64,000 nt of DNA, taken from Cytophagaceae bacterium ABcell3 (GTDB lineage: Bacteria > Bacteroidota > Bacteroidia > Cytophagales > Cytophagaceae). Under the pieces are notes generated by a model. That model did not search any database. It was not told the origin of the DNA and worked only from the letters and a program-made list of their open reading frames with translations. Each line of letters starts with the position of its first letter. Within the stretch, counting starts at the first letter, position 1. The stretch covers positions 3,060,584 to 3,124,583 of the forward strand of contig CP133159.1 of the NCBI GenBank assembly GCA_030913385.1, in the 5' to 3' direction. This document shows, piece by piece, positions 10,226 to 58,416 of the stretch. The position numbers and the translations under genes are program-made.

Positions 10226-11674
10226 TCAGTTTATCCAATTTTTTTCTTCCTGAACAATATGCTTAAGCTCTACTTTTACGCCAAACTTATCTTCAAGATG
10301 TTTAGCCACACTGTCTGCTGCGAAAACGCTTCTATGTTGGCCACCAGTGCATCCAAAACTCACCTGCAAGCTTTCAAATCCTCTTTTCAAATAATCGGAC
10401 ACACTTATGTCTACCAAACTATAGACATGTTGTAAAAAGGTAGGCATTTCGGTTTGATAAACTAAAAAATCTTTCACCTCCTTATCGCGTCCAGTTAGTT
10501 TTTTATAAGGAGCAAACCTACCAGGGTTTAAAATACCCCGACAATCAAAAACAAAACCGCCCCCGTTGCCACTAGGGTCTTCTGGGAGCCCCTTTTTATA
10601 TGAGAAACTGTGGACTTTAACTACAAGTTTGCTTTCATCTGTAGCTTTAATGTTTTCGTACCGAGCTATAATATCATCTGAGGTCATGGCCTCCAACGCT
10701 TTTTGTAGTTCTGGAAGCCGTATTGGTATACTTTTGTTTTCCAGAAACCATTTCAAATTTTTTAAAGCATACGGAATACTACTGATAAAATGTGGCTTTC
10801 TTTCAAATAATCCCCTGTATCCATAAGCCCCAAGCGTCTGCAACATTCGGATAAGGACAAAACCATGGTAGTTGTCAAGGAACTCATCACGCTTAAGCTG
10901 ACCATTCAACAAGTCATTTACCCTGTCAAAATAATAGTCAAATAACTCATCACGCCATTCATAAGGTAGAGCAGCTTTGGCTTGCCATAGCATAGAAGCC
11001 ACATCATATTGTAATGCCCCTTGCATACCACCTTGATAATCTATAAAATACACCTTATCATCTTTGACCATTACATTTCTGCTTTGGCAATCCCTATGCA
11101 TGAAAAATTTATTTTTTTCCTGCATTAAGAAATAGCTCAGCATTTCAAAGTCGTTTAAAAGCAGGTTTTTATCATAAGGAAGCTTTAGAGCCCTTAAGAA
11201 ATAGTATTTAAAATAAAGTAAATCAGAGTAAATGGCGTGTCTATCAAAAGAGCGTGTAGCAATACAATAGTCGTAGTTCAATCCGGTGCCTCCTTGGATT
11301 TGTAAGCGGGCCAGTTGCGCTAAGGTTTTTTGATAAAGCTCAAAGGTATGGTCTGTATATCCCTCTTCCTGCAATTTATCAAGAAGGGAAGTGCTTCCCA
11401 AATCAGCTTGTACATAAAATTGCTTGTCAGCACTAACATGATACACTTCTGGAACAGATATTTGTTTACTGCTAAAATGTTTGGTAAACTCTAAAAAAGC
11501 AGTGTTTTCACGAACATTTGTATTGTAGGTTACGATATATGGCCGCTGAGCAGTGCTGACCCTAAAGTACATTCTGTCACTTCCCGCTAAAGCAAGCTGC
11601 TTAATGTCCTGAATGGCCAACTCTGGTTTCCAATTTTCAAAAAAAGCTTTTACCTGATCTATTATGGTAGGCAT
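10226..11674 (-). CDS. AmgK-like sugar kinase fused to a RapZ C-terminal domain
   Basis: Residues 1-340 form an aminoglycoside-phosphotransferase-type kinase with the catalytic loop HRDCQSRNVMV and the metal motif IDYQGGMQGALQYD, as in AmgK, the anomeric kinase for MurNAc and GlcNAc. From about 352 to 482 the protein matches the RapZ C-terminal domain (FSYKKGLPED, FVFDCRGILNPG, SFGCTGGQHRSV), without RapZ's N-terminal P-loop ATPase domain. In E. coli the RapZ C-terminal domain senses glucosamine-6-phosphate and binds small RNA. Its fusion to a recycling kinase suggests sensing of amino-sugar status. The gene heads a minus-strand operon with murU and a small ORF. Kinase fold and RapZ domain are confident, the substrate is inferred from context. 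Confidence 0.85.
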   Translation of the reverse strand: MPTIIDQVKAFFENWKPELAIQDIKQLALAGSDRMYFRVSTAQRPYIVTYNTNVRENTAFLEFTKHFSSKQISVPEVYHVSADKQFYVQADLGSTSLLDKLQEEGYTDHTFELYQKTLAQLARLQIQGGTGLNYDYCIATRSFDRHAIYSDLLYFKYYFLRALKLPYDKNLLLNDFEMLSYFLMQEKNKFFMHRDCQSRNVMVKDDKVYFIDYQGGMQGALQYDVASMLWQAKAALPYEWRDELFDYYFDRVNDLLNGQLKRDEFLDNYHGFVLIRMLQTLGAYGYRGLFERKPHFISSIPYALKNLKWFLENKSIPIRLPELQKALEAMTSDDIIARYENIKATDESKLVVKVHSFSYKKGLPEDPSGNGGGFVFDCRGILNPGRFAPYKKLTGRDKEVKDFLVYQTEMPTFLQHVYSLVDISVSDYLKRGFESLQVSFGCTGGQHRSVFAADSVAKHLEDKFGVKVELKHIVQEEKNWIN

Positions 11675-11910
11675 ATTATGGTCTATTTAAAGGCGAAAAA
11701 CAATTCCGCTTAATTCTTATTAAGTATAACGCTGACAAATTTATAAAATATAAAGTTTGTTGCAGGTTTTTCTGTAAGAAATGACACAACCCTTTAGAAT
11801 ATAATAATATTAAAATTTTTTAAGATTTTTTTAAAATATTCCATTACCTTAATATATGTAAAATGTATATAGTGTATGCTTTACATTATAATCAACCAAA
11901 CCTAACTTTT

Positions 11911-14900
11911 ATGAAGAAACTGTACTTTTTAACGCTTAGGCGAATGCTGTTGCTGTTGGTTTTTCTAAATATGAGCTTTTTATCAGCAAATGCGCAAAAC
12001 CTTTTAAGCAATGGAGATTTTGAAGATGGGGATACCGATTGGAACCATCAAGCAGGTGGAACATCCAATGCGTCTTTTGATCTAGTAACAGATGATGTTT
12101 ACAGTGGATCGAATGCTCTTAGGGTTCAGGCCAATACGCTTGGAGCAGAAAGTTGGGATATCCAGTCCATCCATTCCGGTTGGGAAGCAGAAGTTGGAAG
12201 GGATTACCAAGTTACGATCCACGCCAAAGCAGACCAAAATGGAAAAAGACTACGTCTGGTGAACCAAAATGAAGTTTACCTGACACATGCTGTCACATTA
12301 AGTACAGAATGGAACAGCTACACTTGGACATTTACCGCTCAAGAATCAAACCCATCGTTCCGGTTGCATTACATTGAAACTGGAACTTTTCACATCGATG
12401 ACATATCTATAGAAGTGCTCCCTGAAATTGAGCCTCCCGTGTTAGAAACATCCTTAAAAGAGCTGGGAGAGTATTGTGGTTTGTATGTAGGAACTGCTGT
12501 GGCTGATGCTCCCCTGAGAAACGAAACGCATTACAGAAATACCATTATCCAACAATTTGGAATGGTAGTGGCCGAGAATGAAATGAAGATGGAGACCATT
12601 AAACCTTCTGAAGACGGCCCTTATAATTTTGAACCTGGCGACAGACTGGTTGATTTTGCAGAAGAACATGGTATGCAGGTGCGTGGACACGCATTACTTT
12701 GGCATAGCCAAATGCCACGATGGATGAACGACAGGTCTTGGACCAAACAAGAGTTGATGGATTACTTAAAAGAATACATCACCACGGTAGTTACCCACTA
12801 TAAAGGAAAAATCCAAGAATGGGATGTCGCCAATGAGGTAATAAGTGATGGCCCTGGCAATCCTATAAGGGATGAACTGTGGTTCAATATTGGTGGAGTG
12901 GAAATTATTGACTCAGCTTTTAAGTGGGCACATGAAGCAGACCCCGACTGTAAACTTTATTATAACGACTATAGTGCCGAAACCATGAACAGCAAGTCTG
13001 ATGCTGTTTATGACTTAGTAAACGGACTGAAAGAAAGAGGTGCTCCTATTTATGGTGTTGGTCTGCAATCGCACCGTAATTACAATGAAGGTCTCCAAAT
13101 GCACTACGACCTGATTACCCAAATGGACCAGAATATTAAAAGGATCGGGGAACTAGGATTGAAAGTGGCCATTACAGAATTAGACCTTGGTATTCATACA
13201 CCAGTAACGGAACAAGATTATCAAGACCAAGCTGCTACTTATGCTAATATTTTGCAAGTAGCCCTGGACAACCGGCCTACCATTGAAACTTTTTGCTTAT
13301 GGGGCTTTACTGACAAACATTCTTGGATTCCAAACTTTTCAGGTGGAGAAAGAGATGAAGCTTTGATCTTTGACCATAATTACTTTCCCAAGCCGGCCTA
13401 TGATGCCTTAGTAGAAACCTTTGAAAATTGTACCCCGCCGGAAACCTGTGATGCGGAAATTTCTTATGAAGGAAGTAGGACTTTATGTGAAGGAGATTCG
13501 CTCGAGTTAACAGCTACAGAAGGTGCTTCTTATGTATGGCGAAAAGACGGTGACAATATAGGTACTTCAAGGACTTTGTGGGCAAAAGAAGATGGAGAGT
13601 ACAATGTTGAGGTGACTTATGCTAATGGCTGTACTGGTACTTCAGAAAGCCTTGGAATCTCTGTTGACCCTAAACCTGAAATATCTTATGAAGCTCCTAC
13701 AGTTGTATTGGTAGAACCTGCGGTCATTAGTTTCTCCGCGGAGTTAGCCAATGGCGGGGGAGATGCATGGAAGCTTAAAAATGAATCAGGAGAAATCATT
13801 TATACAGAAGAAGGGGAGAATTTCAACTTTGAAGAAGACGGGTTTGAAGCAGGAGAGCATTCTTTTATATTGATAGCTACAACAGAAAGTTGTATTGATT
13901 CTGTGGAAATAACTTTTAATGTAGAAGAATGTCCAAAACCCGAATTTTTAACTTATATCCAAAAAAATGAGGAAGAAGTTCAAGAGGTAGACAGTATGTC
14001 TGTTCCTGATGAGGCAAGCGTTAGATTGATACCTGAAACTGAACAAGAGGGCATCTGGAGTTGGACTGGCCCTAACGGTTTTGAAGCTGATACTCGTGAA
14101 ATTACAATAGAAGACTTCTCAGAGTCGCATGAAGGTGAATATGAAGTGACTTTTGTCAATGAATGTGGTCGGGATACCAGTATTATATTTACTTTATCTT
14201 ACTGTTATATATCTGACATACTCCCTTTTGCTTTTGTCAATGAAGAAGAAATCGAGAGCAAGGAAATAATAGTTGCTGAAGGCGATGAATTACTGTTAGA
14301 TCCACGTTTACTTATTACATCCACTCCTGGCCCTGAACCATATCCTGGACAGCCAGAAGATGGTTGGTACTGGGCAGGGCCTAATGATTTTGTTTCCAAT
14401 GAAAGGCAAGTTTCAATAGAAAGCGCTTCTGTTGAAGTTTCTGGTACTTATACAGTAAGCTATACTGCTGAATGCGGTACGAAACAAATAAGGTATGAGG
14501 TGCAGGTACAAGCAGAACCTGCCATCGACTGCAACGGAGACGAAGGGGGGACAGCCGAAATTGACGAATGTGATGTATGTGCCGGTGGCGAAACAGGCAT
14601 TGAACCGGGTTATACTTGCGCTGAGCCTGAAATTGAGTCTATCAGCGAGGACATTGAAGTTGAAGAAGGTGAAGAGCTAACGCTAACAGTTACAGCTTCT
14701 GGCCCTGGCGAACTTTCATACCAATGGTTCAGAAACGGCCAAGCCATTGAAGGTGCCACCGATGCTACCTATACCGTAACGGAAGCTGCTGTTTCTGATG
14801 CTGGCACTTACCATGTGGTGGTAAGCAACGAAAACGGTGACACGCAAAGTGCTTCTGTTGAGGCAACCATTGTCCAAGGAATCGACTGTAACGGCGACGA

Positions 14901-16695
14901 AGGGGGGACAGCCTATATCGATGATTGCGATGTCTGCGCCGGTGGCAATACAGGCATTGAGCCAGGCTTCACTTGCGCAGAGCCAACAGTAGAAGTTGTC
15001 TCCAGCGACATCAATGTAGAAGAAGGTGAAGACTTTACTTTGGAAGTTTCTGTAAGCGGCCCTGGAGAGAACACTTATCAGTGGTTCAAAGACGGAGAGC
15101 CGATTGAAGGTGCTATAGAAAGTACCTATACCGTACCTTCTGCAAGCGGATCCGATGCAGGCAGCTATCATGTGGTTGTGACCAATGACAATGGCGCTAC
15201 CACCAGTGACCCAATTCAAGTAAGTATTGCCTCAGCACCTGAAGTAGACTGCAACGGCGATGAAAACGGAACAGCGGAATATGACGAGTGCGATGTTTGC
15301 GCCGGTGGCAATACAGGCATTGAGCCAGGCTTCACTTGCGCAGAGCCAACGGTAGAAGTTATCTCCAGCGACATCAATGTAGAAGAAGGCGAAGACTTTA
15401 CTTTGGAGGTTTCTGTAAGCGGTCCTGGAGAGAACACTTACCAGTGGTTCAAAGACGGAGAGCCAATTGAAGGCGCTACAGAAAGTACCTTTACAGTTCC
15501 TTCTGCAAGCGGATCCGATGCAGGCAGTTACTATGTAGTGGTGACCAATGACAATGGCGCTACCACCAGTGACCCAATCCAAGTAAGTATTGCCACAGCA
15601 CCTGAAATAGACTGTAACGGCGATGAAAATGGAACAGCTGAATATGACGAGTGCGATGTCTGCGCCGGTGGCAATACAGGCATTGAGCCAGGCTTCACTT
15701 GTGCGGAGCCGGTTATAGATGCCATCTCTGCTGATATTAATGTAGAAGAAGGTGAAGACTTTACTTTGGAGGTTTCTGTAAGCGGTCCTGGTGAAAATAC
15801 TTACCAGTGGTTCAAAGACGGAGAGCCAATTGAAGGCGCTACAGAAAGTACCTATACCGTACCTTCTGCAAGCGGATCCGATGCGGGAAGCTATCATGTG
15901 GTTGTGACCAACGACAATGGTTCTGTCACAAGTGATGAAGTACATGTGGATGTGAGCTTGGCGGTAGACTGTAATGGCGTAGCTGGCGGTACTGCCGAAA
16001 TAGACGAATGTGGAGAGTGTGCCGGTGGCGATACAGGTATCGAACCTGGTTCTTCTTGCCCAGTGGTGAACCCAGAAATCATAAGTATCCCAACTGCACT
16101 AGAAGCGACTTTAGGAGAGCCGTTTGAGCTGAACGTAAACGCTTCTGGACCGGGATCTTTCACTTACCAGTGGTACCATAATAACCAACCAATAAATGGA
16201 GCTACCAACAGTACTTATTCTGTAGAAGAAACTTCTGAGGAAGACGCCGGTACATATCATGTTGTCATTACAAGCAGCAATGGCGGTGAGACCAAAAGCG
16301 AGGAAATTACGCTAACAGTTACCCAACCGGTAGACTGTAATGATGATATTTGGGGCGATGCCTTTTATGATGTATGTGGTATTTGCGCAGGAGGAAACAC
16401 AGGCATTGAGCCAACATTAGATGAGGATGAATGTGTTACCAGCATCAATGGCGAAGAGTTGGGTGCCAAGGTAAATGTTTATCCTAACCCTGCAAGTACA
16501 GAGTTGTTTGTTGAATATCAAGCTGTGGAGACTAAAACCTTGACTTTGTTAAACGGTTTAGGTCAAGTAGTCAGGTCTGTAAACAGTACCAACACAGTTG
16601 ATCGTTTTGACATCTCAGATTTACCTTCAGGAGTTTACCTGTTGGTCGTTGAATATGAAGGCAAGGTACAACATGCTAAAATAGTGGTTCAGTAA
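11911..16695 (+). CDS. GH10 xylanase, multidomain, T9SS-secreted
   Basis: The frame is open from an ATG at 11863, but Met at 11911 starts a proper signal peptide ending SFLSANAQ and is preferred (1594 residues). A CBM4/9-like domain (about 30-172) opens with NLLSNGDFEDG. The GH10 barrel (about 180-506) has acid/base Glu309 in WDVANEV and nucleophile Glu423 in ITELDLG, with RGHALLWHSQ between, so it should cleave xylan internally. Ig-like domains follow, then six cysteine-rich motifs of DCNGDExGTA type alternating with five Ig-like domains (from 14527). A T9SS type A domain with VNVYPNPASTELFVEY ends the protein. The last 741 coding bases appear identical to the end of the GH74 gene. It is divergent from the amgK gene and convergent with wrbA. 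Confidence 0.93.
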   Translation: MKKLYFLTLRRMLLLLVFLNMSFLSANAQNLLSNGDFEDGDTDWNHQAGGTSNASFDLVTDDVYSGSNALRVQANTLGAESWDIQSIHSGWEAEVGRDYQVTIHAKADQNGKRLRLVNQNEVYLTHAVTLSTEWNSYTWTFTAQESNPSFRLHYIETGTFHIDDISIEVLPEIEPPVLETSLKELGEYCGLYVGTAVADAPLRNETHYRNTIIQQFGMVVAENEMKMETIKPSEDGPYNFEPGDRLVDFAEEHGMQVRGHALLWHSQMPRWMNDRSWTKQELMDYLKEYITTVVTHYKGKIQEWDVANEVISDGPGNPIRDELWFNIGGVEIIDSAFKWAHEADPDCKLYYNDYSAETMNSKSDAVYDLVNGLKERGAPIYGVGLQSHRNYNEGLQMHYDLITQMDQNIKRIGELGLKVAITELDLGIHTPVTEQDYQDQAATYANILQVALDNRPTIETFCLWGFTDKHSWIPNFSGGERDEALIFDHNYFPKPAYDALVETFENCTPPETCDAEISYEGSRTLCEGDSLELTATEGASYVWRKDGDNIGTSRTLWAKEDGEYNVEVTYANGCTGTSESLGISVDPKPEISYEAPTVVLVEPAVISFSAELANGGGDAWKLKNESGEIIYTEEGENFNFEEDGFEAGEHSFILIATTESCIDSVEITFNVEECPKPEFLTYIQKNEEEVQEVDSMSVPDEASVRLIPETEQEGIWSWTGPNGFEADTREITIEDFSESHEGEYEVTFVNECGRDTSIIFTLSYCYISDILPFAFVNEEEIESKEIIVAEGDELLLDPRLLITSTPGPEPYPGQPEDGWYWAGPNDFVSNERQVSIESASVEVSGTYTVSYTAECGTKQIRYEVQVQAEPAIDCNGDEGGTAEIDECDVCAGGETGIEPGYTCAEPEIESISEDIEVEEGEELTLTVTASGPGELSYQWFRNGQAIEGATDATYTVTEAAVSDAGTYHVVVSNENGDTQSASVEATIVQGIDCNGDEGGTAYIDDCDVCAGGNTGIEPGFTCAEPTVEVVSSDINVEEGEDFTLEVSVSGPGENTYQWFKDGEPIEGAIESTYTVPSASGSDAGSYHVVVTNDNGATTSDPIQVSIASAPEVDCNGDENGTAEYDECDVCAGGNTGIEPGFTCAEPTVEVISSDINVEEGEDFTLEVSVSGPGENTYQWFKDGEPIEGATESTFTVPSASGSDAGSYYVVVTNDNGATTSDPIQVSIATAPEIDCNGDENGTAEYDECDVCAGGNTGIEPGFTCAEPVIDAISADINVEEGEDFTLEVSVSGPGENTYQWFKDGEPIEGATESTYTVPSASGSDAGSYHVVVTNDNGSVTSDEVHVDVSLAVDCNGVAGGTAEIDECGECAGGDTGIEPGSSCPVVNPEIISIPTALEATLGEPFELNVNASGPGSFTYQWYHNNQPINGATNSTYSVEETSEEDAGTYHVVITSSNGGETKSEEITLTVTQPVDCNDDIWGDAFYDVCGICAGGNTGIEPTLDEDECVTSINGEELGAKVNVYPNPASTELFVEYQAVETKTLTLLNGLGQVVRSVNSTNTVDRFDISDLPSGVYLLVVEYEGKVQHAKIVVQ
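14527..16450 (+). repeat. Cysteine-motif plus Ig-like module array in the GH10 gene
   Basis: Six copies of a motif of about 31 codons (DCNGDExGTAxxDxCDVCAGG type) start at 14527, 14884, 15247, 15610, 15967 and 16333, spaced 357-366 bp. Five Ig-like domains of about 85 residues, with YQWF and DAGxYxVVV strands, fill the spaces. Neighbouring modules are close to identical in places. Motif cysteines probably pair within each motif; calcium binding by the acidic residues is a guess. Confidence 0.85.
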
Positions 16696-16758
16696 CCATA
16701 AGGCATGTGTTGTGCCCTTACAAAAAAAGCTGCCGGATTTTTTCTGGCAGCTTTTTTT
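15955..16758 (+). repeat. Copy 1 of an 804-bp near-perfect duplication (GH10 tail and terminator)
   Basis: This stretch reads as identical to 28184-28987 in all blocks compared by eye. It includes the last two cysteine motifs, one Ig-like domain, the T9SS domain, the stop codon and the terminator, and stops inside the terminal T-run (next base G here, A in the other copy). Confidence 0.88.
16722..16758. terminator. Terminator after the GH10 gene
   Basis: AGCTGCCGGA pairs with TTCTGGCAGCT around a T-rich loop and is flanked by A and T runs, so it can act for both the GH10 gene and the convergent wrbA gene. The same hairpin ends the GH74 gene. Confidence 0.85.
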
Positions 16759-16806
16759 GTTTTATAACTTAAGCTAAGAAATTAACATTGGATAATAAAT
16801 TATAAA

Positions 16807-17424
16807 TTACCCTTCAGCCAAACCTGCTTTCACCCATTTGGCAATTTTTACAGTTCTCCTTGCTTGGTGCTTTATCGCTTTTTCCACACTATTTTGTATT
16901 TTTCCTTCTGAGTCAATGGTGGCGCTAGTGCCGTATGGATTACCTCCTGCTTCAAATATAGATTGGTCAGTATAACCAGTAGGAACAAGTATTGCCCCCC
17001 AATGTGACATAATCTTATATAGTGACCTTAAGGTAGTTTCTTGTCCTCCATGTGGGTTCATGGCAGACGTCATTCCGCTCACTACCTTGTTTGCAAGTTT
17101 TCCTTGAAACCACAGCCCTCCAGTAGTATCTATAAATGATTGTACTTGAGAAGGCATGTTTCCATATCGGGTAGGTATGCTGAAAATAATACTGTCAGCC
17201 CATTCTAGGTCTTCTAAAGTTGCTTCTGGAACATCTTTGGTTGCTTCTACATTTTTCTTCCAGGCAGGATTCTTGTCAATAGCTTCTTTGGGGGCAATTT
17301 CTTTAATTTTCAAAACCTTAACTTCTGCACCAGCTTCTTTTGCTGCCCCTTCGGCCATTTTAGCCATTTTATAATTTCCTCCTGTAGAGCTGTAGTAGAT
17401 TATTGCGAGTTTTAATGTAGCCAT
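16807..17424 (-). CDS. wrbA: WrbA-type NAD(P)H:quinone oxidoreductase (flavodoxin fold)
   Basis: The 205-residue protein has the FMN phosphate loop YYSSTGGNYKMA near the N-terminus, the IPTRYGNMPSQ segment and the SGMTSAMNPHGGQETT segment typical of WrbA. It should bind FMN and reduce quinones by two electrons in the cytoplasm, limiting redox cycling. The length fits the family (about 200). It is convergent with the GH10 gene and divergent from the flavoprotein gene. A 34-bp dyad at 17486-17519, about 60 bp upstream of its start, is a candidate operator. Confidence 0.92.
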   Translation of the reverse strand: MATLKLAIIYYSSTGGNYKMAKMAEGAAKEAGAEVKVLKIKEIAPKEAIDKNPAWKKNVEATKDVPEATLEDLEWADSIIFSIPTRYGNMPSQVQSFIDTTGGLWFQGKLANKVVSGMTSAMNPHGGQETTLRSLYKIMSHWGAILVPTGYTDQSIFEAGGNPYGTSATIDSEGKIQNSVEKAIKHQARRTVKIAKWVKAGLAEG

Positions 17425-17485
17425 TGTTGTTTAAATTAAATGTTATAACATGTATTTTGTCTCTGATAAACATTTAAAGACTCAA

Positions 17486-17519
17486 ATTGTTTGTCAAGGT
17501 AAATACCTTAGCAAACAAT
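17486..17519. promoter_or_regulatory. 34-bp dyad, candidate operator between wrbA and the flavoprotein gene
   Basis: The arms are ATTGTTTG and CAAACAAT on the outside and AAGGTA and TACCTT on the inside, separated by two mismatched positions on each side and a 2-nt centre. No T-run follows, so it is more likely a protein-binding site than a terminator. It lies in the 292-bp divergent intergenic region. Confidence 0.5.
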
Positions 17520-17716
17520 CATTTGCCCTCGCTCTAAGCAAACCACAAACATAATGAGTGTGCTAAAGTTTACATTATTCCGGAATAAGGAGAAAAAGCT
17601 TTTGGTTAAAACTTAAAGTTAGGTTTCATAAATCTTGGTGATGAAAAACTCGAACAAGTTGCAATGATGCGTTCAGGAGTCCTTTCTTCCAAGGTTTCAT
17701 TTAGAACACATCACAT

Positions 17717-19441
17717 ATGGAAAACCCTAATATAGTAACAAACTTTGATTATAAAGTAATAATTCTAGGTGCAGGAGCTGCTGGTATCAGGACAGCTATA
17801 GAACTTAAAAAGAACAATATATCTTGTTTGCTGATTTCAAAACGGAAACACGATGATGCCCACACCAAAATGGCTGCTGGTGGAATTAATGCATCATTGG
17901 GTAGCCTTGATCCTGATGACAACTGGAAAATACATGCGGCGGACACTATTAGAGAAGGTTATTTTATCAATGATCCATCTGCTGTGGAAGTAGTGTGCAA
18001 ACAAGCTCCGGAAGCTGTTTTAGAATTGCAAAAATGGGGCTGTAAATTTAATTTGACTGAAGATGGAAAGATAAACCAACGTTTCTTTGGTGCCCAGTCT
18101 TTTAGACGTACATGTTTTTCAGGAGATGAAACGGGCAAAGAAATTTTAAGAACATTGGTTGCTAAAGCCAAAGCTGAGGCTATAGAACACCAAGAAGGTA
18201 TTTATATTTTTAAAATTCTTAAAAGCAATGAGCGCATAACCGGGGCTTTAGGGTATGATATGGTAAATGAACAATTCGTACATTATTTATCACCTGTTGT
18301 TGTTATCGCTTGTGGGGGATATGCATCGGTATACAGTAGGTCTTCTTCAAGGCAAGGTGAAAATACGGGAGATAGTATTTCCTTGGCACTGCAAGCAGGA
18401 GCAAGGGTCATGGATATGGAAATGGTCCAGTTTCACCCAACGGGAATGGTTAGCCCTCAATCATATCTGGGTAAATTAGTAACAGAAGCTGTTAGGGGAG
18501 AGGGAGGGATATTGGTCAATAAAACAGGAGAGCGTTTTATGGAAAAATACGCTCCAGAGCAAATGGAGCTAGCTACAAGAGATGAAGTAGCACGAGCCAT
18601 TGCAAAGGAAATCCTAGAAGGACGTGGCACAAAAAACAGTGGAGTTTTCCTGGATATTTCACATAAAGATAAGGACTTTATTAAAGATCGTTTGCCACAT
18701 ATGTACGAACGCTTTTCAGGGATTGGTATAGATATCTCTAAAAAACCTATGGAAGTGGCCCCAACCAGCCATTATTCTATGGGAGGTATAGAGGTGGATT
18801 TTACCACTGGCAGTACAGGTGTTAAAGGCCTATATGCAGTAGGTGAGGCTACAGCAGGTTTGCACGGCGCAAATAGGCTCGGAGGAAATTCATTAGCAGA
18901 AACTATAGTATTGGGTAAAATAACTGGCAATAGTATTGCTGAATACTTAACTACACAGGCAACTATTGAGAAAAAAGGGAATGACACTACCATACAGTTG
19001 CCACAGTTCCCTAATTATCTCTCCGCAGAAAAACTTATCAAAGATGTTAAAGAGCTCCTGTGGTTACATGCCGGGATAATTCGTTCTCAAAAAATACTTG
19101 AAGAAGGTCTGGAAAAGCTAGAAAAAATCCAAAAAAATCTAAAGGGCCATGAACAACAAACTGAATTTAATGCTGAGAACTTCTTAATGTCTTTAGACTT
19201 ACATAATATAATGGTGGTAGCTGAACTTATTTTAAAATCAGCTTTAGAAAGAAAAGAGTCCAGAGGTGCGCATTTTAGAGAAGATTTTCCAGAAGAGAGG
19301 AAGCATTGGTGTAAAAATATTTTGTGGGGGAAAACTCAAGCCGGATATCAGATATCATCTAAAGATATTCCAGAAGTTGGTAGAGATATTAAAGAAGTAC
19401 TTGAAGCGCATTATAGATTGGATTACCACCAATTAGAATAA
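17717..19441 (+). CDS. Fumarate reductase/succinate dehydrogenase-type flavoprotein, no partner subunits
   Basis: The 574-residue protein opens with the FAD-binding motif ILGAGAAGIRTAIEL, has HTKMAAGGINAS, in which the His aligns with the covalent-FAD histidine of SdhA/FrdA, and retains the active-site segments FHPTGM, RGEGGILV, HYSMGGIEV and GLHGANRLGGNSL. It is therefore a likely dicarboxylate oxidoreductase. RRTCFSGDETG resembles SdhA more than L-aspartate oxidase. No iron-sulfur or membrane anchor gene is adjacent, so it may be a soluble fumarate reductase or use unlinked partners. The role is inferred from family only. It ends at a terminator shared with rpsU. Confidence 0.8.
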   Translation: MENPNIVTNFDYKVIILGAGAAGIRTAIELKKNNISCLLISKRKHDDAHTKMAAGGINASLGSLDPDDNWKIHAADTIREGYFINDPSAVEVVCKQAPEAVLELQKWGCKFNLTEDGKINQRFFGAQSFRRTCFSGDETGKEILRTLVAKAKAEAIEHQEGIYIFKILKSNERITGALGYDMVNEQFVHYLSPVVVIACGGYASVYSRSSSRQGENTGDSISLALQAGARVMDMEMVQFHPTGMVSPQSYLGKLVTEAVRGEGGILVNKTGERFMEKYAPEQMELATRDEVARAIAKEILEGRGTKNSGVFLDISHKDKDFIKDRLPHMYERFSGIGIDISKKPMEVAPTSHYSMGGIEVDFTTGSTGVKGLYAVGEATAGLHGANRLGGNSLAETIVLGKITGNSIAEYLTTQATIEKKGNDTTIQLPQFPNYLSAEKLIKDVKELLWLHAGIIRSQKILEEGLEKLEKIQKNLKGHEQQTEFNAENFLMSLDLHNIMVVAELILKSALERKESRGAHFREDFPEERKHWCKNILWGKTQAGYQISSKDIPEVGRDIKEVLEAHYRLDYHQLE

Positions 19442-19470
19442 AAAAAAGCCCGATTGTTCGGGCTTTTTTT
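19441..19470. terminator. Bidirectional terminator shared by the flavoprotein gene and rpsU
   Basis: AAAAAAAGCCCGA pairs with TCGGGCTTTTTTT around a TTGT loop. The stem overlaps the last codons of rpsU and directly follows the flavoprotein stop codon. Confidence 0.9.
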
Positions 19471-19663
19471 ATATGTTTTCGTTATTCTGCATTTTCTGAC
19501 GATAAATGGCTTTGATCTTTTGGTTTCTTCTAGCCACTGAAGGTTTTTCGAAATATGAGCGTGAACGAACTTCATTTAAAGTACCTGTCTGCTGAAATTT
19601 CTTTTTATAACGCTTTAAAGCACGGTCAATAGACTCATTTTCTTTTACCTTAATTACGATCAT
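19469..19663 (-). CDS. rpsU: Small ribosomal subunit protein S21
   Basis: The 64-residue product starting MIVIKVKENESIDRALKRYK is a typical Bacteroidota S21, with the conserved RSRSYFEKPSVARR and IKAIYRQK segments. The frame is open for ten more codons upstream (to 19693), but the Met at 19663 matches the family start and is used here. S21 is a component of the 30S platform near the mRNA exit. In Bacteroidota it belongs to the group that sequesters the anti-Shine-Dalgarno tail of 16S rRNA, which fits the scarcity of Shine-Dalgarno sequences in this window. It ends inside a terminator shared with the convergent flavoprotein gene. Confidence 0.95.
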   Translation of the reverse strand: MIVIKVKENESIDRALKRYKKKFQQTGTLNEVRSRSYFEKPSVARRNQKIKAIYRQKMQNNENI

Positions 19664-20026
19664 AATAAATCCTTCTTTCTGTTTAATTTTCAAATTTTGA
19701 TTCGCAAATGTATCACTTTTTTTTATTTAATGCAAGTAGCATTAAGAAAAATATTCTCCTTTATACTAATAACTAAATAACCAAAGCTTTAGTTGCGTAT
19801 CTGTGTTTGATTGGTGTGCCACCTATTTATGACCAGTAAATTTAAAACTATAAGATTTCCTCGCAACTTAACTTAGTACCCTTAAAACAAGGTTGAAACC
19901 AGCTTTGAAAATTAAAAAATGGCAAAAGCTGTTACTTATTGCCGCTATACTTGTATTATTCAATATAATCCAGAGATTGTTCCATTTTTTCTCTGCTAAT
20001 TTTTTCTTAATACATTAAACATCGAT
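19664..20026. other. Intergenic region between rpsU and the mannanase gene
   Basis: AT-rich; it presumably holds both divergent promoters. A 41-codon frame from TTG at 19893 to a stop at 20016 would encode a hydrophobic peptide, but it has no ATG and I do not call it. Nothing else is supported. Confidence 0.4.
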
Positions 20027-23000
20027 ATGAAACGAACTTTACTAATGCTGTTATTGGGCTGCGTTGCCTCTATGTACGCAAATGCCCAAGGGTTTCAAAC
20101 CTCGGGAGCAGAACTATTAGATGCTAATGGAAATCCCTTTGTTATGAAAGGTATCAATGTCCCTTTGGCGTGGTTTACTAACCAAACTTTAGACAACATT
20201 GAAAACATTCGTGAAAACACCAACGCTAACTGTTTGAGGATCGTCATTGGGAATGGCTATACCCCAAATGATGGAACGGGGTCAAACTGGAATACCAGGG
20301 ATGAAGATTGGCAATTGGCAGTAGAGAGGTGTATTGAAAATAATATGATCCCAATGGTAGAAGTTCATAATGTACTGGGGAGCAACGATCCTGAAGACTT
20401 ACAGGCTGTAGCTGAATGGTGGGCTTCGAAAGCAGATTTTTTGACCAGACCTGAAAATGAAAGGTATTTACTCATAAATATTGTCAATGAATGGGGGGAT
20501 TGGTGGATGAGTAGTCCTAATAATGACCCGCCACAAAGTTTATGGCGTGATGCTTATATTGATGCAGTCCAAACTATTAGAGATGCAGGAGTTACCACTA
20601 CTTTGGTAATTGACGCCCCCGGCTACGGCCAAGACTATCAAAGCTCTACTTTGCTAAACTATGCGCCAGAGGTTATTGAGGCTGACCCTGAAAACAATCT
20701 TATGTTTTCGTTACACATGTACTGTGAATGGAGTACCACTGGAAATTCAGATATAGCAACTTTGCTTCCAGCTGTGAAAAACGCAGGAATTCCTATTACT
20801 GTTGGAGAGTTTGGTTTCCAACATGATGAACCTGGTGGTATTTGTGATATTGACGAGGAGCTTATTTTAAGCATTGGGGAACAACATGGTATTGGTTGGC
20901 TAGCATGGTCATGGATTGGTAATGGCAGTCCTTTGGAATATCTAGACTTGAGTAACAACTGGAGTGGAACAGATCTTACCCCATGGGGAGAAACAATAGT
21001 AAATGGAACTTATGGAACCCAAACTGCTGAAACAGCCACTGTGTTCCTCTCTGATGGTGATAACGAACCTCCTGTTGTAAGTTTGATAGCACCTGAAAAT
21101 GAAGCTTCATTTCCTCATGGAGAAGATATCATATTGTCAGCAGAAGCATCAGATCCTGATGGAGAAGTGGCTAATGTCCGTTTTTTTAATGGCAATGTTT
21201 TATTGGGGATAGTTGACTCTGAGCCTTATACGTTTACTTGGGAAAATGCCCCAGAAGGAGAACATACAATTACCGCTCGTGCCACGGACGATGGTGGAGC
21301 TTTTACTACTTCCGACCCAATAGTTATAACAGTAAGAACACCTTGCCCCCAACCAGATTTAGGAACTCAACTGGTAACCTGTCCAGGTAATGTACTAGAG
21401 CTTGATTCAGGGGTAGAACTTAATGATGATTTTGAATTTGGGTGGTCCTTTAACGGACAGGAAATAAGTGGTGCATCTTCCAATACTTTGGAAATTGATG
21501 AACCTGGTATGTATCGGGTTACTATTTCTACTATCGATTGTGAAGCAACTGACGAAGTAGAGGTGGTTTCTGGATTGCTGGAGGCAACAGGGGATACATT
21601 ATGTATAGCTGGCGAGGCAACAATAAGCGTTTCTGGCGGCAACGGGCCTTATGAATGGTTTGCAGAAGAAACAGGTGGAGAAGCATTATATGAAGGAGAG
21701 TCTTATCAGCTACAAGTAGAGGAGACCACAGTTTTTTATGTAGAAGACCTTGGTGCAGAGCCTCATTTGGCAGAGTATATAATGGGCGAAATTGAAAGAC
21801 CGGCAGGTGTAGAACAATGGGGGCTTTCAGGTACTGACTTTGCTGATGACGATAAAAACATTGCCTTTATTGTCTATGAGGAATTAACCCTTAATGCTAT
21901 ACATGTTTATTCTGCAACAGCAAACAATGAAGTAACAATTAGGGTTTTGGAAGGTACCAATGTTATTGAAGAAGTTATCCATACAGTAGGGACAGGCAAG
22001 CAGCGAATACCCTTGAATGTATCGCTTACCCCAGGGGAATACACCATAGACCCTGTAGGAACCTCCGGAACTTTACAGTATCAAGCAGAAGGAGCTAGTT
22101 TTCCATATGAACTTCCAAATATCATGTCATTTACTGGTACCCAGGAGTGGGTATTAAGTGATGGCAGATATGGCTTTTTCTACGAATGGGAAATTTCAGT
22201 TGAGTCAGATTTGGTATGTGGGCGAACTCCCATTACTGTGGTAGTAGATCCTGATCATGAAAGTTGTACTGATTGTCACGGAACTGAAAATGGAACCGCC
22301 GAAATTGACGAATGCGATGTATGTGCTGGTGGCGAAACAGGCATTGAACCGGGTTATACTTGCGCTGAGCCTGAAATTGAATCTATCAGCGAGGACATTG
22401 AAGTTGAAGAAGGGGAAGAGTTAACGCTAACAGTTACAGCTTCTGGCCCTGGCGAACTTTCATATCAATGGTTCAGAAACGGCCAAGCCATAGAAGGTGC
22501 CACTGGTGCTACCTATACCGTAACTGAAGCTGCTGTTTCTGATGCGGGCACTTACCATGTGGTGGTAAGCAACGAAAACGGTGACACGCAAAGCGCCTCT
22601 GTTGAGGTAACCATTATCCAAGGAATTGACTGTAACGGCGACGAAGGGGGAACAGCCTATATCGATGACTGCGATGTCTGCGCCGGTGGCAATACAGGCA
22701 TTGAGCCAGGCTTCACTTGCGCAGAGCCAACAGTAGAAGTTGTCTCCAGCGACATCAATGTAGAAGAAGGTGAAGACTTTACTTTAGAAGTTTCTGTAAG
22801 CGGTCCTGGAGAGAACACTTACCAGTGGTTCAAAGACGGAGAGCCAATTGAAGGCGCTACAGAAAGCACCTATACGGTACCTTCTGCAAGCGGTTCCGAT
22901 GCGGGAAGCTATCATGTGGTTGTGACCAATGACAATGGCTCTACTACCAGTGACCCAATCCAAGTAAGCATTGCCGCAGCACCTGAAGTGGATTGCAACG

Positions 23001-24076
23001 GCGATGAAAACGGAACAGCGGAAATTGACGAGTGCGATGTCTGCGCCGGTGGCAATACAGGTATTGAGCCGGGCTTCACTTGCGCAGCACCAACAGTAGA
23101 AGTTGTTTCCAGCGACATCAATGTAGAAGAAGGTGAAGACTTTACTTTGGAAGTTTCTGTAAGCGGTCCTGGAGAGAACACTTACCAGTGGTTCAAAGAC
23201 GGAGAGCCAATTGAAGGCGCTACAGAAAGTACCTATACGGTTCCTTCTGCTAGTGTGGCCGATGCAGGCAGTTACTATGTAGTTGTGACCAATGACAATG
23301 GTTCTGTCACTAGTGATGAGATACATGTGAATGTAAGCTTGGCAGTAGATTGTAATGGGGTAGCTGGAGGTACTGCTGAGATAGACGAATGTGGAGAATG
23401 TGCCGGTGGCGATACAGGAATCGAACCAGGTTCTTCATGTCCGGTAGAGAACCCAGAAATTGTAAGTATCCCAACAGAGCTTGAAGCTACTTTAGGAGAA
23501 CTATTTGAGTTGAATATAAATGCTACAGGCCCAGGGTCTTTCACTTACCGGTGGTATCACAATGGTAACCCAATAGATGGTGCTACCAGCAGCAGTTATA
23601 CTGTAGATGAAACCTCAGAAGAAGACGCCGGTACTTACTATGTGGTCATTACCAGCAGCAATGGAGGAGAGACCAGAAGTGACAATATTACGCTGACAGT
23701 AACCGAACCGGTAGATTGTAACGGAGACGCTTGGGGAGATGCCTTTATAGATGTATGTGGTGAATGCGCAGGCGGTAATACGGACAGAGAACCTATAGAG
23801 GATGAAGATGAATGCATTACCAGCATTAACGCAGAAGACGTTAATGGCCAGGTAAAAGTTTATCCTAACCCTGCTAATACAGAGTTGTTTGTGGAACATG
23901 GTTTTACAAATACCGTAAACATTACAGTATACAATAATCATGGACAGGCAGTAGTGTCTATAGAAAACAGTCTGTCAACAGAAAGAGTAAATGTTAACGA
24001 CTTACCTGCTGGAATGTATCATATTACAATACAGGGTAATGATTCAATTAAGCATATCTCATTTATTAAACATTAA
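20027..24076 (+). CDS. GH5 (subfamily 8-like) endo-beta-1,4-mannanase, multidomain, T9SS-secreted
   Basis: The 1349-residue protein has a signal peptide ending MYANAQ and a GH5 barrel at about 25-330. Acid/base Glu155 lies in INIVNEW and nucleophile Glu261 in VGEFGF. The segments LVIDAPGYGQ, FSLHMY and IGWLAWSWIGNG follow the pattern of alkaline beta-mannanases of GH5_8, so mannan is the likely substrate; the subfamily is assigned from memory of that pattern. A cadherin/Ig-like domain (about 350-435) and further beta-sandwich domains follow. Five cysteine motifs then alternate with four Ig-like domains (from 22271), and a T9SS type A domain with VKVYPNPANTELFVEH ends it. The GH74 gene follows after 48 bp without an evident terminator, so the two may form an operon. 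Confidence 0.9.
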   Translation: MKRTLLMLLLGCVASMYANAQGFQTSGAELLDANGNPFVMKGINVPLAWFTNQTLDNIENIRENTNANCLRIVIGNGYTPNDGTGSNWNTRDEDWQLAVERCIENNMIPMVEVHNVLGSNDPEDLQAVAEWWASKADFLTRPENERYLLINIVNEWGDWWMSSPNNDPPQSLWRDAYIDAVQTIRDAGVTTTLVIDAPGYGQDYQSSTLLNYAPEVIEADPENNLMFSLHMYCEWSTTGNSDIATLLPAVKNAGIPITVGEFGFQHDEPGGICDIDEELILSIGEQHGIGWLAWSWIGNGSPLEYLDLSNNWSGTDLTPWGETIVNGTYGTQTAETATVFLSDGDNEPPVVSLIAPENEASFPHGEDIILSAEASDPDGEVANVRFFNGNVLLGIVDSEPYTFTWENAPEGEHTITARATDDGGAFTTSDPIVITVRTPCPQPDLGTQLVTCPGNVLELDSGVELNDDFEFGWSFNGQEISGASSNTLEIDEPGMYRVTISTIDCEATDEVEVVSGLLEATGDTLCIAGEATISVSGGNGPYEWFAEETGGEALYEGESYQLQVEETTVFYVEDLGAEPHLAEYIMGEIERPAGVEQWGLSGTDFADDDKNIAFIVYEELTLNAIHVYSATANNEVTIRVLEGTNVIEEVIHTVGTGKQRIPLNVSLTPGEYTIDPVGTSGTLQYQAEGASFPYELPNIMSFTGTQEWVLSDGRYGFFYEWEISVESDLVCGRTPITVVVDPDHESCTDCHGTENGTAEIDECDVCAGGETGIEPGYTCAEPEIESISEDIEVEEGEELTLTVTASGPGELSYQWFRNGQAIEGATGATYTVTEAAVSDAGTYHVVVSNENGDTQSASVEVTIIQGIDCNGDEGGTAYIDDCDVCAGGNTGIEPGFTCAEPTVEVVSSDINVEEGEDFTLEVSVSGPGENTYQWFKDGEPIEGATESTYTVPSASGSDAGSYHVVVTNDNGSTTSDPIQVSIAAAPEVDCNGDENGTAEIDECDVCAGGNTGIEPGFTCAAPTVEVVSSDINVEEGEDFTLEVSVSGPGENTYQWFKDGEPIEGATESTYTVPSASVADAGSYYVVVTNDNGSVTSDEIHVNVSLAVDCNGVAGGTAEIDECGECAGGDTGIEPGSSCPVENPEIVSIPTELEATLGELFELNINATGPGSFTYRWYHNGNPIDGATSSSYTVDETSEEDAGTYYVVITSSNGGETRSDNITLTVTEPVDCNGDAWGDAFIDVCGECAGGNTDREPIEDEDECITSINAEDVNGQVKVYPNPANTELFVEHGFTNTVNITVYNNHGQAVVSIENSLSTERVNVNDLPAGMYHITIQGNDSIKHISFIKH
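22271..23830 (+). repeat. Cysteine-motif plus Ig-like module array in the mannanase gene
   Basis: Five cysteine motifs start at 22271, 22628, 22991, 23348 and 23713, with four Ig-like domains between them. Module order and spacing parallel the arrays in the GH10 and GH74 genes. The first motif is variant (CTDCHGTENG). Confidence 0.85.
23051..23343 (+). repeat. 293-bp tract identical to part of the GH74 gene
   Basis: It reads identical to 27899-28191, covering most of one cysteine motif and one Ig-like domain. The tract is bounded by single mismatches (T versus C at 23050, A versus G at 23344). Confidence 0.82.
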
Positions 24077-24124
24077 ATTCAAAAGCAGCCAGGTTTGACA
24101 GCCTTTCTTATAAAATAAGGTTCT

Positions 24125-27100
24125 ATGAGAAAACGATTATGTAATTTTTGGGTATTTTTTTTAACATTTGTCCTGTACATCCCAACAAGTTATGGACAAA
24201 GTGAATACAGTTGGGGAAATGTGGAAATTGTCGCAGGAGGCTTTTTAACAGGTATTGTTTACCATCCCACAGAACAGGGCCTTGCTTATGCCCGGACAGA
24301 TATGGGTGGTGCCTACAGACTAGATGGCACTACCAGAAGGTGGGAACCACTGACTGATGTATTTGATGCAGATGACTGGAACATGATGGGGATTGAAAGT
24401 ATGGCCATAGATCCTACAGATCCGGATAGGGTTTATATGGCTTGCGGTACCTATGCTTACCATGACTGGGCAGGAAATGCTTCTTTCTTTAGTTCAACTG
24501 ATCGTGGAGAGACTTGGGAAAGAACTTATCTTGATTTTAAACTAGGCGCCAATGAAGATGGTCGGGGCATGGGCGAACGTCTGGCTTTAGATCCTAATGC
24601 ACCTGAAACCCTTTATTTAGGTACTAGGCAAAACGGCCTTTACAAATCTACCAACAGAGGAGCTAATTGGTCTCAGGTAAGTTCATTTCCAAATATAAAT
24701 ACACCACGTGATGTAGGTCTTGGATTTGTAGTAATCGATGCAGCATCTGGCTCTCCGGGAAACCCTTCTCAGGTTATATATGTGGGAGTCGCACGTAATG
24801 ATGGAACGAATTTATACAGAAGCACAGACGGCGGGGAATCTTGGGAAGGGATACCTGGTGCTCCTACAGGAATTATGCCTTATCAGGCTAAACTTGCCAG
24901 CAATGGGACTTTATATATAAGCTATACAGACGCTCCCGGGCCAAATGATATTGATAATGGAGCTGTATATAAATTTAATACTCAAAGTGAAGAATGGACA
25001 CGTATTAAAGCACCTGACCCTGATATGGAATATGGTTTCGGTGGTATAGCTGTTGATCCTAATAATCCTAACACTATCATGGTTGGGTCAATTTGCAGGT
25101 GGTGGCCATACGACCAAATGTACCGTAGTACAGATGGCGGTGACAATTGGATAGCAGTAGGCACTGGCAGGGATTACATAAACAGGGATGTGTCTGCTTC
25201 ACCCTATATTAGGTGGGGAAATGACCCTTCTGAAGATAATAATATTAGAACAGGAAACTGGATAAGTGCTTTGGCCATTGATCCATTTGACTCAGACAGA
25301 GTGCTATATGCTACAGGGGCAACCGTTTGGGGCTGTGATGAAATAAGTAATGCTGATGACCAAAACCCCATCAAATGGGAAATACGTGCTCAAGGGGTAG
25401 AACAAACTGCCATTCTTTCACTGGCAAGTCCTAATGAAGGGCCTAGCCTGTTGAGTGGAATAGGGGATATTTGTGGATTTGTACATAATGATATCAGGAA
25501 ATCTCCTGAAGCTGGTATGATAGACCCTGCTTTTAAAGATGGTGTTGGTGTAGATTTTGCAGAACTAAACCCTTCTGTGTTCGCCATTATCGGGCACGAT
25601 TATGAACCTGTTGACTACATGGGAGCCATATCAACAGACGCAGGTGAAAACTGGACCAGATTTGAAAATCATCCAGCAGACATGGAAGATGGTATGATAG
25701 CATTGAGTGCGGATGGTGAAATAATTATTTGGGCGCCTGAAAATCAAGCTCCTTATAGATCTGTTGATGGAGGAAGTCAGTGGACGCAGGTAAATGGAAT
25801 TGGAGGTACCGCAACTCTGGTTTCTGATAGGGTAAATTCCAATAAATTTTATGCTATCAGAAGCAATACTTTTTATAGAAGTACAGACGGTGGTGTTAAT
25901 TTTTCCGCAGCTGCCACTTCGGGTTTTTCTGGCACAAAACTTAAAGCTGTACCTGGATATGAAAATCATATATGGGTTCCTGCAAACAACGGCCTGTATC
26001 ATTCTTCCAATGGTGGTGATTCTTTTGAAAGAAATAACCAGGTGCAAAGTGCTGACGTAGTAGGGTTTGGAAAAGCAGCTCCGGGTCAGGAATATCCTGC
26101 AATCTTTATCACAGGTTCTGTAAATAATACCTATGGTATTTACAGGTCTGATGATGCAGGTGAAAATTGGGTTAGGATTAATAATGATTTAAATCAGTTT
26201 GGCGCTATAAATACTGCCATTACAGGAGACCCAAGGGTATATGGTAGAGTTTATGTTGCTACAAATGGAAGGGGTATAATTCTTGGGGAGGTAGCTTCAG
26301 AAGAATGTGAAAAACCCAAAATTACAGCTTTTAGTCAAATAGAGGACAAGGAAAAAGAGCAGGTTAATGAAGTGGTTGCTCCGCTTGGAAGCAATATTAC
26401 CCTATCTGTCGAAACCACAGAAGAAGGTACTTGGGAATGGACTGGCCCAGACGAACTAATCTCTGATAATGAATCACTAACAGTAGAAAACTTCAGTTCT
26501 GAAGTTACTGGAACCTACGCTGCCTCATTTACCAACGTTTGTGGAAAGGATACAACTGTTTCTTTCATTCTCTCTCTTTGTGATACAAACACCATTTCTC
26601 CCATGGTAATAATTGGGGAAAATGAACCAGAAGAAAATAAAGAAATTTCAATTTCGGAGGGTAAAAACCTGACATTATCCCCTGTAGCTTCTGATGGGAA
26701 GTGGGAGTGGATAGATATTAACGGTTCTTCAGAAAGTACTAGGGAAATCTCTTTTGCCAATATTGGTATGGAAAGTACAGGCAATTATGAGGTTAATTTT
26801 ACCAACGAATGTGGCGCCCAAAGTTCATTAACCTATTCTGTTCATGTTATTGCCAAACCTGTGGTGGAAAGCTTGCCTACTGAAATCGAAGTTTCGGAAG
26901 GAGAAGCTATTACTTTGGAAGTTATAGCAACCGGAAGCGGCACTTTAAGCTATCAATGGTATCATAATGAAATGCTGATAGAAAATGCGACATCAGCAAC
27001 CTTAGAAATTGAATCTTCCCGTGAATCAGACAGTGGTATATGGCATGTAGCTATAACCGATGAATATGGTGGTGTTACAACAAGTGACAATATCGAGGTT

Positions 27101-28924: not shown

Positions 28925-28987
28925 CCATAAGGCATGTGTTGTGCCCTTACAAAAAAAGCTGCCGGATTTTTTCTGGCAGCTTTTTTT
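28184..28987 (+). repeat. Copy 2 of the 804-bp near-perfect duplication (GH74 tail and terminator)
   Basis: Reads as identical to 15955-16758, including stop codon and terminator; see that entry. The similarity ends at the terminator T-run. Confidence 0.88.
28951..28987 (+). terminator. Terminator after the GH74 gene
   Basis: Same hairpin as after the GH10 gene: AGCTGCCGGA paired with TTCTGGCAGCT, then a run of seven T. It separates the GH74 gene from the sulfur operon. Confidence 0.85.
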
Positions 28988-29156
28988 ATATTATCCTTTT
29001 GCGTAGCCCTTGAGCTTTTTAAGCACAGATTTAAAGTTTTAGATTCCCTGTAGACTTATCGAATTACGACTTTGTTCATGCCATTTTTCAAATGACAAAA
29101 ATTCTTAAAATTTCCATTCTAACTAATATTTGCCAATATTTTCATATTATTTTTTT

Positions 29157-29182
29157 AACATATGAAATTTTTTTCATATGTT
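29157..29182. promoter_or_regulatory. Perfect 26-bp palindrome, candidate operator of the ArsR-type repressor
   Basis: AACATATGAAA and TTTCATATGTT are perfect 11-bp arms around TTTT. It ends 32 bp before the start of the arsR-like gene, a usual position for autoregulation of an ArsR-type operon. The related stretch TTTTCATATTA lies just upstream (about 29140-29150). Confidence 0.75.
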
Positions 29183-29214
29183 AGCGTTATGGTTATAGAA
29201 GAAAGGAAATATGT

Positions 29215-29526
29215 ATGAATAATTCTGATACTAGACCGCAAATTACTCCTGAGAAACTTGAAAAAGCATGCAGGATACTTAAAGTTATCGCCCATCCTGT
29301 AAGGATGTCAGTGATTGAACTACTGGATAAGTATGAACAATTAAATGTGGGAGAAATTCAGGAGCATATAGAAATAGAACAAGCGGCACTTTCTCACCAT
29401 CTAATCAATATGAAAGATAAAGGAGTTTTGCAATGTTTTAGAGATGGAAAAAATATGGTATATTCTTTAAAAGAAAAGAAGATTGTGAAGATATTGGATT
29501 GCCTTTCCCAATGCGAAATGGAATAA
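29215..29526 (+). CDS. ArsR/SmtB-family repressor, probable persulfide sensor
   Basis: The 103-residue protein has a winged helix with AHPVRMSVIELL, the recognition helix region EQAALSHHLINMKDKGVL and the wing FRDGKNMVYSL. It carries four cysteines: Cys19 in the first helix, Cys74, and Cys96 and Cys100 in the last helix. An N-helix plus C-helix cysteine pair is the pattern of BigR/SqrR-type sensors that form a tetrasulfide bridge with persulfides, and the downstream operon fits that. The classical metal-site motif of SmtB or ArsR is not evident. It probably represses the operon through the palindrome at 29157-29182. Family is sure, ligand inferred. Confidence 0.88.
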   Translation: MNNSDTRPQITPEKLEKACRILKVIAHPVRMSVIELLDKYEQLNVGEIQEHIEIEQAALSHHLINMKDKGVLQCFRDGKNMVYSLKEKKIVKILDCLSQCEME

Positions 29527-29579
29527 TTTTTTTTAAAATATATGCAATTATCTAAATATGTAAATAATTTAATATTTTT

Positions 29580-50152: not shown

Positions 50153-50536
50153 TAGGGTTATTCATTTAAGTCTCTAGGAAGCAATAAGTTTTTTTTGTAC
50201 GATAAAATGCTTTAAACTGCCTTTCTTAAATGGCGATATGTACCACTGTTAGAAAATAAGGCGGCCATTGATGAAATTGCGTTAAGAACTTTATAAGCAT
50301 GAAGCGGCCAAAAAATTTGCTGTTTGAGCCCGACGCAAGGAGGGTGAGTTTCATCCCGATAGCTATCGGGATAGCGTAATGGTTATAAAGTTTAGCAAAT
50401 TTCATCACAGGCCTTGACTTTTTTGCTTACTTTTTTTGTCTAAGAAAAAAAGTAAGGCCCTGCCGGCGAGGCAAAAAGTAACTTAGCGAGCCTAAGTAAG
50501 CTAATAACACATAAGATATTTAAATGGGTAACCCTA
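50153..50536. repeat. MITE-like interspersed element, family 1, copy 2
   Basis: Ends TAGGGTTATTCATTTA and, in reverse complement, TAGGGTTACCCATTTA. It is flanked by the 8-bp direct repeat TAATACAA (50145-50152 and 50537-50544). Inside is the palindrome CCCGATAGCTATCGGG and the inverted pair CTTACTTTTTTTGTC / AAGAAAAAAAGTAAG. A short minus-strand frame is an accident of the repeat, not a gene. Confidence 0.8.
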
Positions 50537-50596
50537 TAATACAATAGACTTATTGCTACGTAACAGAAAGTTCTATTACATTATTCAGGTTAAATA

Positions 50597-58348: not shown

Positions 58349-58356
58349 TTTTTTTT

Positions 58357-58416
58357 TAACCGATTATGCATTAGGTTTTGTTAGGAGGGGCAAAAGAAAG
58401 TTCTAATGCATAAAGA
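58357..58416. repeat. Small inverted-repeat element, family 2, copy C (short form)
   Basis: TTAACCGATTATGCATTAG on the left and TTCTAATGCATAAAGA on the right surround a GGGGCAAAAGAAAG block shared with copies A and B. It is an internal-deletion form that abuts the family 1 element. Confidence 0.55.

Follow-up and report, generated by a model that had tools for sequence, protein, structure and literature searches.

Introduction

T9SS sorting domains provide for the export and surface attachment of enzymes in Bacteroidota. Paralogous repeats in general are subject to gene conversion and concerted evolution, which are recognized by one-way copying, mosaic tracts, and identity at synonymous sites. 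The closest described case among T9SS cargo genes is that of P. gingivalis, in which hagA and kgp are said to have “virtually identical” 3′ ends; the authors infer that spontaneous variants lose kgp by recombination between them (PMC9328147). Together with rgpA, these two genes also carry repeats that are identical both within one gene and from gene to gene (PMC5266723).

The locus examined here, located in a genome of the family Cytophagaceae, resembles hagA–kgp in that neighboring T9SS cargo genes carry different heads and near-identical 3′ ends (PMC9328147). The outcome recorded there is the loss of kgp, whereas a one-way copy is seen here and the genes are intact. Unlike in P. gingivalis, moreover, the heads of the present locus are polysaccharidases, its tails are built of Cys-motif and Ig modules, and the copied piece includes a putative terminator. 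Compared with gene conversion in general, the process is here confined to the 3′ part of multidomain genes having unrelated 5′ parts. A search of titles and abstract openings in the open-licence PMC literature found no report of gene conversion among Cytophaga T9SS tails.

Results

Architecture of the Three Genes

The window, by which we mean the whole 64-kb stretch of DNA analyzed, corresponds to positions 3060584–3124583 of a single 5.115-Mb contig, and its features are numbered below from its first base. Domains were assigned to three neighboring plus-strand genes using Pfam and NCBIfam. The GH10 gene (11863–16695, 1610 aa) contains CBM4_9, GH10, and Ig-like domains and six Cys-motif modules, the last with a T9SS sorting domain. 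A GH5 domain, five Cys-motif modules, and a T9SS sorting domain make up the GH5 gene (20027–24076, 1349 aa), which proved to be a third partner. The GH74 gene (24125–28924, 1599 aa) starts 48 bp downstream of the GH5 gene and has a xyloglucanase-like GH74 head, assigned also by its similarity to solved xyloglucanases, with five Cys-motif modules and a T9SS sorting domain. Modules of these arrays comprise approximately 120 residues each, a Cys motif being followed by an Ig-like domain, and the last module carries the sorting domain. In the GH10 gene this last module (16333–16695, plus strand; Pfam, NCBIfam) consists of a Cys motif and a T9SS type A sorting domain, and the same is found in the GH74 gene at 28562–28924. 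TIGR04183 gave 62.9, 63.8, and 54.7 bits for GH10, GH5, and GH74, respectively (curated cut-off 23), and PF18962 gave 45.3, 42.4, and 43.0 bits (cut-off 27). With C-terminal sorting domains above the curated cut-off, all three proteins are predicted to be T9SS type A cargo, and the GH10 and GH74 enzymes are probably exported and anchored via the same surface tail.

The GH74 head was aligned with the β-1,4-xyloglucan hydrolase 2cn2, which we take to be a GH74 entry, over query residues 3–701 of 701 (E 1.1e-205). Such full-length similarity to solved GH74 enzymes suggests a xyloglucanase-like head. The GH5 head gave no alignment with the GH10 or GH74 head, and that between the GH10 and GH74 heads was limited to residues 652–900 and 726–1010, outside the catalytic domains, at approximately 29–34%.

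Other repeats were noticed in the same window. One of up to 350 bp lies at 1249–1558, 50190–50539, and 58019–58357, outside ORFs of at least 150 aa; its copy at 50190–50539 matches at least 40 other genomic sites (of 100 candidates, 40 were scored), including the two other window copies, at 78–98% identity and on both strands, two of the matches being short. A 184-bp repeat is present 8 times in the genome at 95–100% identity, counting the two copies at 59627–59810 and 63817–64000. Scans of the 64-kb window gave neither an RNA family at gathering score nor a tRNA.

The Identical Tract and Its Terminator

A preliminary description of this DNA held that 15955–16758 and 28184–28987 are identical in every block compared, that they lie in different genes 12 kb apart, and that the identity passes the stop codon and ceases at the end of the terminator. 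Base-by-base comparison bore this out. The GH10 copy (15955–16758, plus strand), the probable source, and the GH74 copy (28184–28987, plus strand), the probable recipient, showed 0 differences in 804 bases, and the exact match is maximal, neither side being extendable. Both copies are on the same strand at a spacing of 12,229 bp, in genes with unrelated catalytic heads. The identity between the GH10 and GH74 tails is hence confirmed as a real observation. The tract holds the final four codons of one module, a whole Cys+Ig module, the sorting-domain module with its stop codon, and 63 bases beyond, where its right edge is the final T of a T-run (T7) after a hairpin. Its edges are sharp, and the right flanks of the two copies differ. 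The genome contains two full-length copies. Among the 106 tails compared, no two share an exact match longer than these 804 bp, and the runner-up, of 788 bp, lies within four tandem whole-gene paralogues.

The hairpin has 18-bp arms in the GH10 copy (16720–16760, plus strand; palindrome and folding), two pairs of which lie past the tract edge, and 16-bp arms in the GH74 copy (28951–28987, plus strand; palindrome comparison), where the right arm stops at the tract edge. The GH10-copy hairpin had a z value of −6.1, and 0 of 200 shuffles were equally stable. Judged by this stable hairpin and the U-run, the 63 bases past the stop codon are predicted to hold an intrinsic terminator; a consensus terminator scan of 11500–29700 did not list the GH10/GH74 hairpin. 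A genome-wide terminator cassette is ruled out by the 23-base hairpin core, which occurs at two genomic places only when up to 2 mismatches are allowed.

Synonymous differences in the two tract modules amounted to 0 of 86.3 + 80.0 sites (approximately 166). In modules 1–2, the synonymous distance (dS) is 0.18–0.26 for all three genes, and GH10 and GH74 show 46 differences in 720 sites; the probability of 804 clean bases at the latter divergence is approximately 10^-23. Module 5 of GH5 stands at dS 0.82 from GH10 and GH74, and the GH5 sorting-domain module, having 59% identity to the GH10/GH74 module, was not homogenized. A tract of near-zero synonymous divergence thus lies inside more divergent homologous sequence, as gene conversion leaves it. 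The sequence to its left is homologous and that to its right has no homology beyond the T-run; the left arrays and right flanks remain gene-specific, indicating that flanks were not exchanged, in keeping with one-way transfer.

Mosaic Structure of the GH74 Gene

Outside the tract, the arrays had been described as only similar. This holds for GH10 against GH74, but not for GH5 against GH74: pairwise and three-way alignment revealed a second tract of approximately one Cys+Ig module, in which GH5 (22994–23343, plus strand) and GH74 (27842–28191, plus strand) have 1 difference in 350 bases, at 27898. The switch from GH5-like to GH10-identical sequence takes place within 8 bp (28184–28191, plus strand), as the last GH5=GH74 site is 28183 and the first GH10=GH74 site is 28192, and its end precedes the next Cys module (28196) by 4 bases. 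In the three-way alignment, which leaves out module 3 of the six-module GH10 array, informative sites were mixed in modules 1–2 and were followed by 45 consecutive GH5=GH74 sites and then by 214 GH10=GH74 sites. Neither run was matched in a permutation test (0 of 20,000 shuffles), where the longest shuffled runs were 41 for GH10=GH74 and 10 for GH5=GH74. Leaving out GH10 module 4 instead of module 3 gave runs of 213 and 37, and again 0 of 20,000 permutations matched. Distances from the edges to module borders were 4–12 bases at the junction and 3–33 bases at the left edge of the GH5/GH74 tract. The 3′ region of GH74 combines GH5-like and GH10-like pieces in a mosaic, and GH74 is probably the recipient.

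Other Tails in the Same Genome

At least 106 sorting-domain matches were obtained in the genome (E up to 0.01), of which 104 were over the curated cut-off; the number is a lower bound, as 150 of 187 first-look candidates were scored. Each sorting domain was compared together with its flanks, to a maximum of 1500 bases on the upstream and 400 bases on the downstream side (blastn, E 1e-10). The pairs 3591482/3592467 and 3649652/3650682, each of which is one physical stretch, were left out along with four pairs whose match lies wholly downstream of that domain, and the tail 3061535 was shortened by the window edge. Nucleotide-level similarity over the sorting domain was detected for 14 of the 106 tails, forming six groups, and five of these groups are neighboring genes. 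Homogenization of tails is not general in this genome, since 92 of the 106 tails are without a partner and the GH5 module reaches only 59%.

Heads and tails were decoupled in the pair 4342533/4345015, with 574 differences at 1200 aligned sites over the first 16 windows versus 14 at 531 sites over the last 177 codons. The same decoupling was observed at approximately 83% for the pair 3940214/3943391. In region L166 (C1:3933000-3945500), two adjacent T9SS genes have heads that are GH5-like and GH30-like by eye, and their Cys+Ig tails match at approximately 83% identity for 1085 nt, as far as the sorting domain reaches. Region L116 (C1:1810121-1822861) contains four tandem T9SS paralogues with 91–97% identity; two of the four are each broken into two reading frames, which may be ascribed to decay, contingency genes, or sequencing errors.

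Tails in Related Genomes

A DNA search with the tail was performed over 59 genomes including the source, and short matches of 24–92 bases were found in 6 of the 58 relatives, a set that includes no same-genus genome. No relative was found by a named-genome scan with the GH74 head. A tail-alignment scan gave 49 named loci, 30 of them at 22–36% identity in the best segment and the others at 39–75%. When each locus was compared with itself, with thresholds of 200 nt, 80%, and E 1e-20 for matches on the same strand between different ORFs of at least 200 aa, a repeat between ORFs was detected in 1 of 49, a weak one (L168, 81.6% over 288 nt). Loci of GH74 relatives had other tails in 12 of the 12 examined, at least three of these loci stopping short of the end of the gene; the finding is consistent with tail replacement, without dating it.

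Twenty regions in four relatives were picked for closely spaced sorting domains among the matches listed (at least 394 in the 4 genomes, candidates having been capped in two of them). Identity of at least 93% over at least 1 kb between different ORFs was found in 3 of these 20 clustered regions (L216, L220, L223). Near-identical tails on divergent heads are counted for only 2 of the 20, because L216 is a near-whole-gene inverted duplicate; this region (G012:C1:3539500-3550500) contains two inverted T9SS genes with 93.6% identity over 1737 nt. In L232, identity was only 73–85%. In G018, a putative Sporocytophaga of the same family as the source, two adjacent T9SS genes have tails of 99.7% identity (pS 0.003 over 1590 nt) and heads of 54.5% identity (pS 0.71 over 558 nt), and the tail match ends at the stop codon. 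Four genes in a row in G012 (GH43; GH10; one lacking any catalytic Pfam match; SASA+GH43) carry tails of approximately 2.4 kb at 96.3–98.5%, with exact matches of up to 938 bp. This polysaccharidase cluster is like the present locus in its consecutive T9SS genes with mostly unrelated heads and common tails. It is unlike it in that the tail consists of CBM9, Big_7, PKD, and the sorting domain, that g1 and g4 both have a GH43-type head (25% identity), and that one match continues through the intergenic region to the start of the next gene. Decoupling of heads and tails recurs beyond this locus, namely in a second pair of this genome, in G018, and in G012.

Discussion

Gene conversion between paralogous tails is the best explanation of these observations, and we hold it to be likely. 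Three neighboring genes with unrelated catalytic heads have homologous 3′ tails, composed of Cys-motif and Ig arrays that end in a T9SS sorting domain. Homologous recombination between such direct-repeat tails, presumably by a RecA-type mechanism, would copy stretches from gene to gene while the flanks stay in place. In the latest event, the end of GH10, comprising a Cys+Ig module, the sorting-domain module, the stop codon, and the terminator, would have been copied over the 3′ end of GH74. This copy would have overwritten part of an older GH5/GH74 exchange, and the two tracts would abut for that reason. The right end may have been resolved in the T-run, where homology stops: the homology from before the event may have reached no further than this point, or the end may have been joined within the run. 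Two-ended conversion alone does not account for a right tract end without homology beyond it. Recent gene conversion had been suggested in the preliminary description, and the synonymous identity, the sharp edges, and the permutation test for the mosaic favor it, although the involvement of GH5 as a third gene, the mosaic nature of GH74, and the possibility of arguing for a direction had been missed. Movement of a complete tail as one cassette had been suggested as well; the tail with its terminator does appear to have been copied as one piece, but a freely mobile cassette is unsupported, since no mobile-element domain was found in the 9 nearby ORFs examined, there is no plasmid or phage match, and only two full-length copies occur in the genome.

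As the sorting domain has a function in T9SS, purifying selection might be thought to have held the two tails identical. Selection is rejected because 0 of approximately 166 synonymous sites differ versus a dS of 0.18–0.26 in modules 1–2. Synonymous and noncoding differences are both 0 over the 804 bases, which rules it out as the cause of the tail identity, and the GH5 tail, at 59% identity in the sorting-domain module and dS 0.82 in module 5, stands against it too; the chance left to it is vanishingly small. Another explanation is that the tails differ in the cell and that one was overwritten through mis-mapped reads during assembly or polishing. Automated assembly did not fully resolve the identical repeats of hagA, rgpA, and kgp (PMC5266723). 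Such an artefact is very improbable here, however, as the genome is in one 5.115-Mb contig, the right flanks of the copies differ at sharp edges, and the same pattern is present in two other, separately assembled genomes.

Two further explanations concern how, and in which direction, the tail was copied. A duplicative insertion, by which the GH10 tail and terminator were duplicated once and joined to GH74, its left end through recombination and its right end through an illegitimate junction at the T-run, would dispense with repeated conversion. It fits a right edge located inside the T7 run with no homology beyond, as well as edges near module or gene borders, and those near module borders would also suit module duplication. 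Against it, the arrays already have modules 1–2 in common, and GH5 and GH74 share a separate near-identical module; therefore, homologous exchange acted more than once. In addition, no transposase or recombinase domain was found in the 9 ORFs examined between 7036 and 34505, and the 804-bp tract had no match in plasmid or phage collections at E 1e-5. We regard this insertion as quite unlikely. Slightly less so, yet still unlikely, is conversion in the reverse direction, from GH74 to GH10. Identity alone is directionless, and both tract edges could lie together owing to a hotspot at module borders; without such a hotspot, the GH5/GH74 and GH10/GH74 edges must coincide within 8 bases by chance. 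GH10 is taken as the source because transfer of its tail to GH74 subsequent to the GH5/GH74 exchange would by itself make the two tracts abut. A weaker clue is that the palindrome arms of 18 bp in GH10 are cut to 16 bp in GH74 at the tract edge. Under reverse conversion, the recipient would carry the fuller 18-bp stem, of which the two extra pairs have a chance of approximately 1 in 16. On these grounds, gene conversion from GH10 to GH74 is the probable direction.

The GH10/GH74 tail exchange is a clear example of a known process, of the same kind as that of hagA/kgp in P. gingivalis. As a mosaic of three genes whose two tracts differ in age, the locus offers a place to test tail homogenization. 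If the tails of neighbors homogenize while their heads diverge, tail trees do not reflect gene history, and exchanges can be dated by the identity of the tails. Polysaccharidase clusters would then also have, in their identical direct repeats, sites of deletion or head–tail fusion, as was inferred for the loss of kgp in P. gingivalis (PMC9328147). More tentatively, and with some doubt on our part, the tails of clustered T9SS cargo in Cytophagaceae may evolve in concert, a pool of modules being copied between unrelated heads, often module-wise and sometimes with the terminator, such that the tail type follows the neighborhood and not the enzyme. If this is true, the tails would be interchangeable parts, and heads and tails could be reassorted by recombination.
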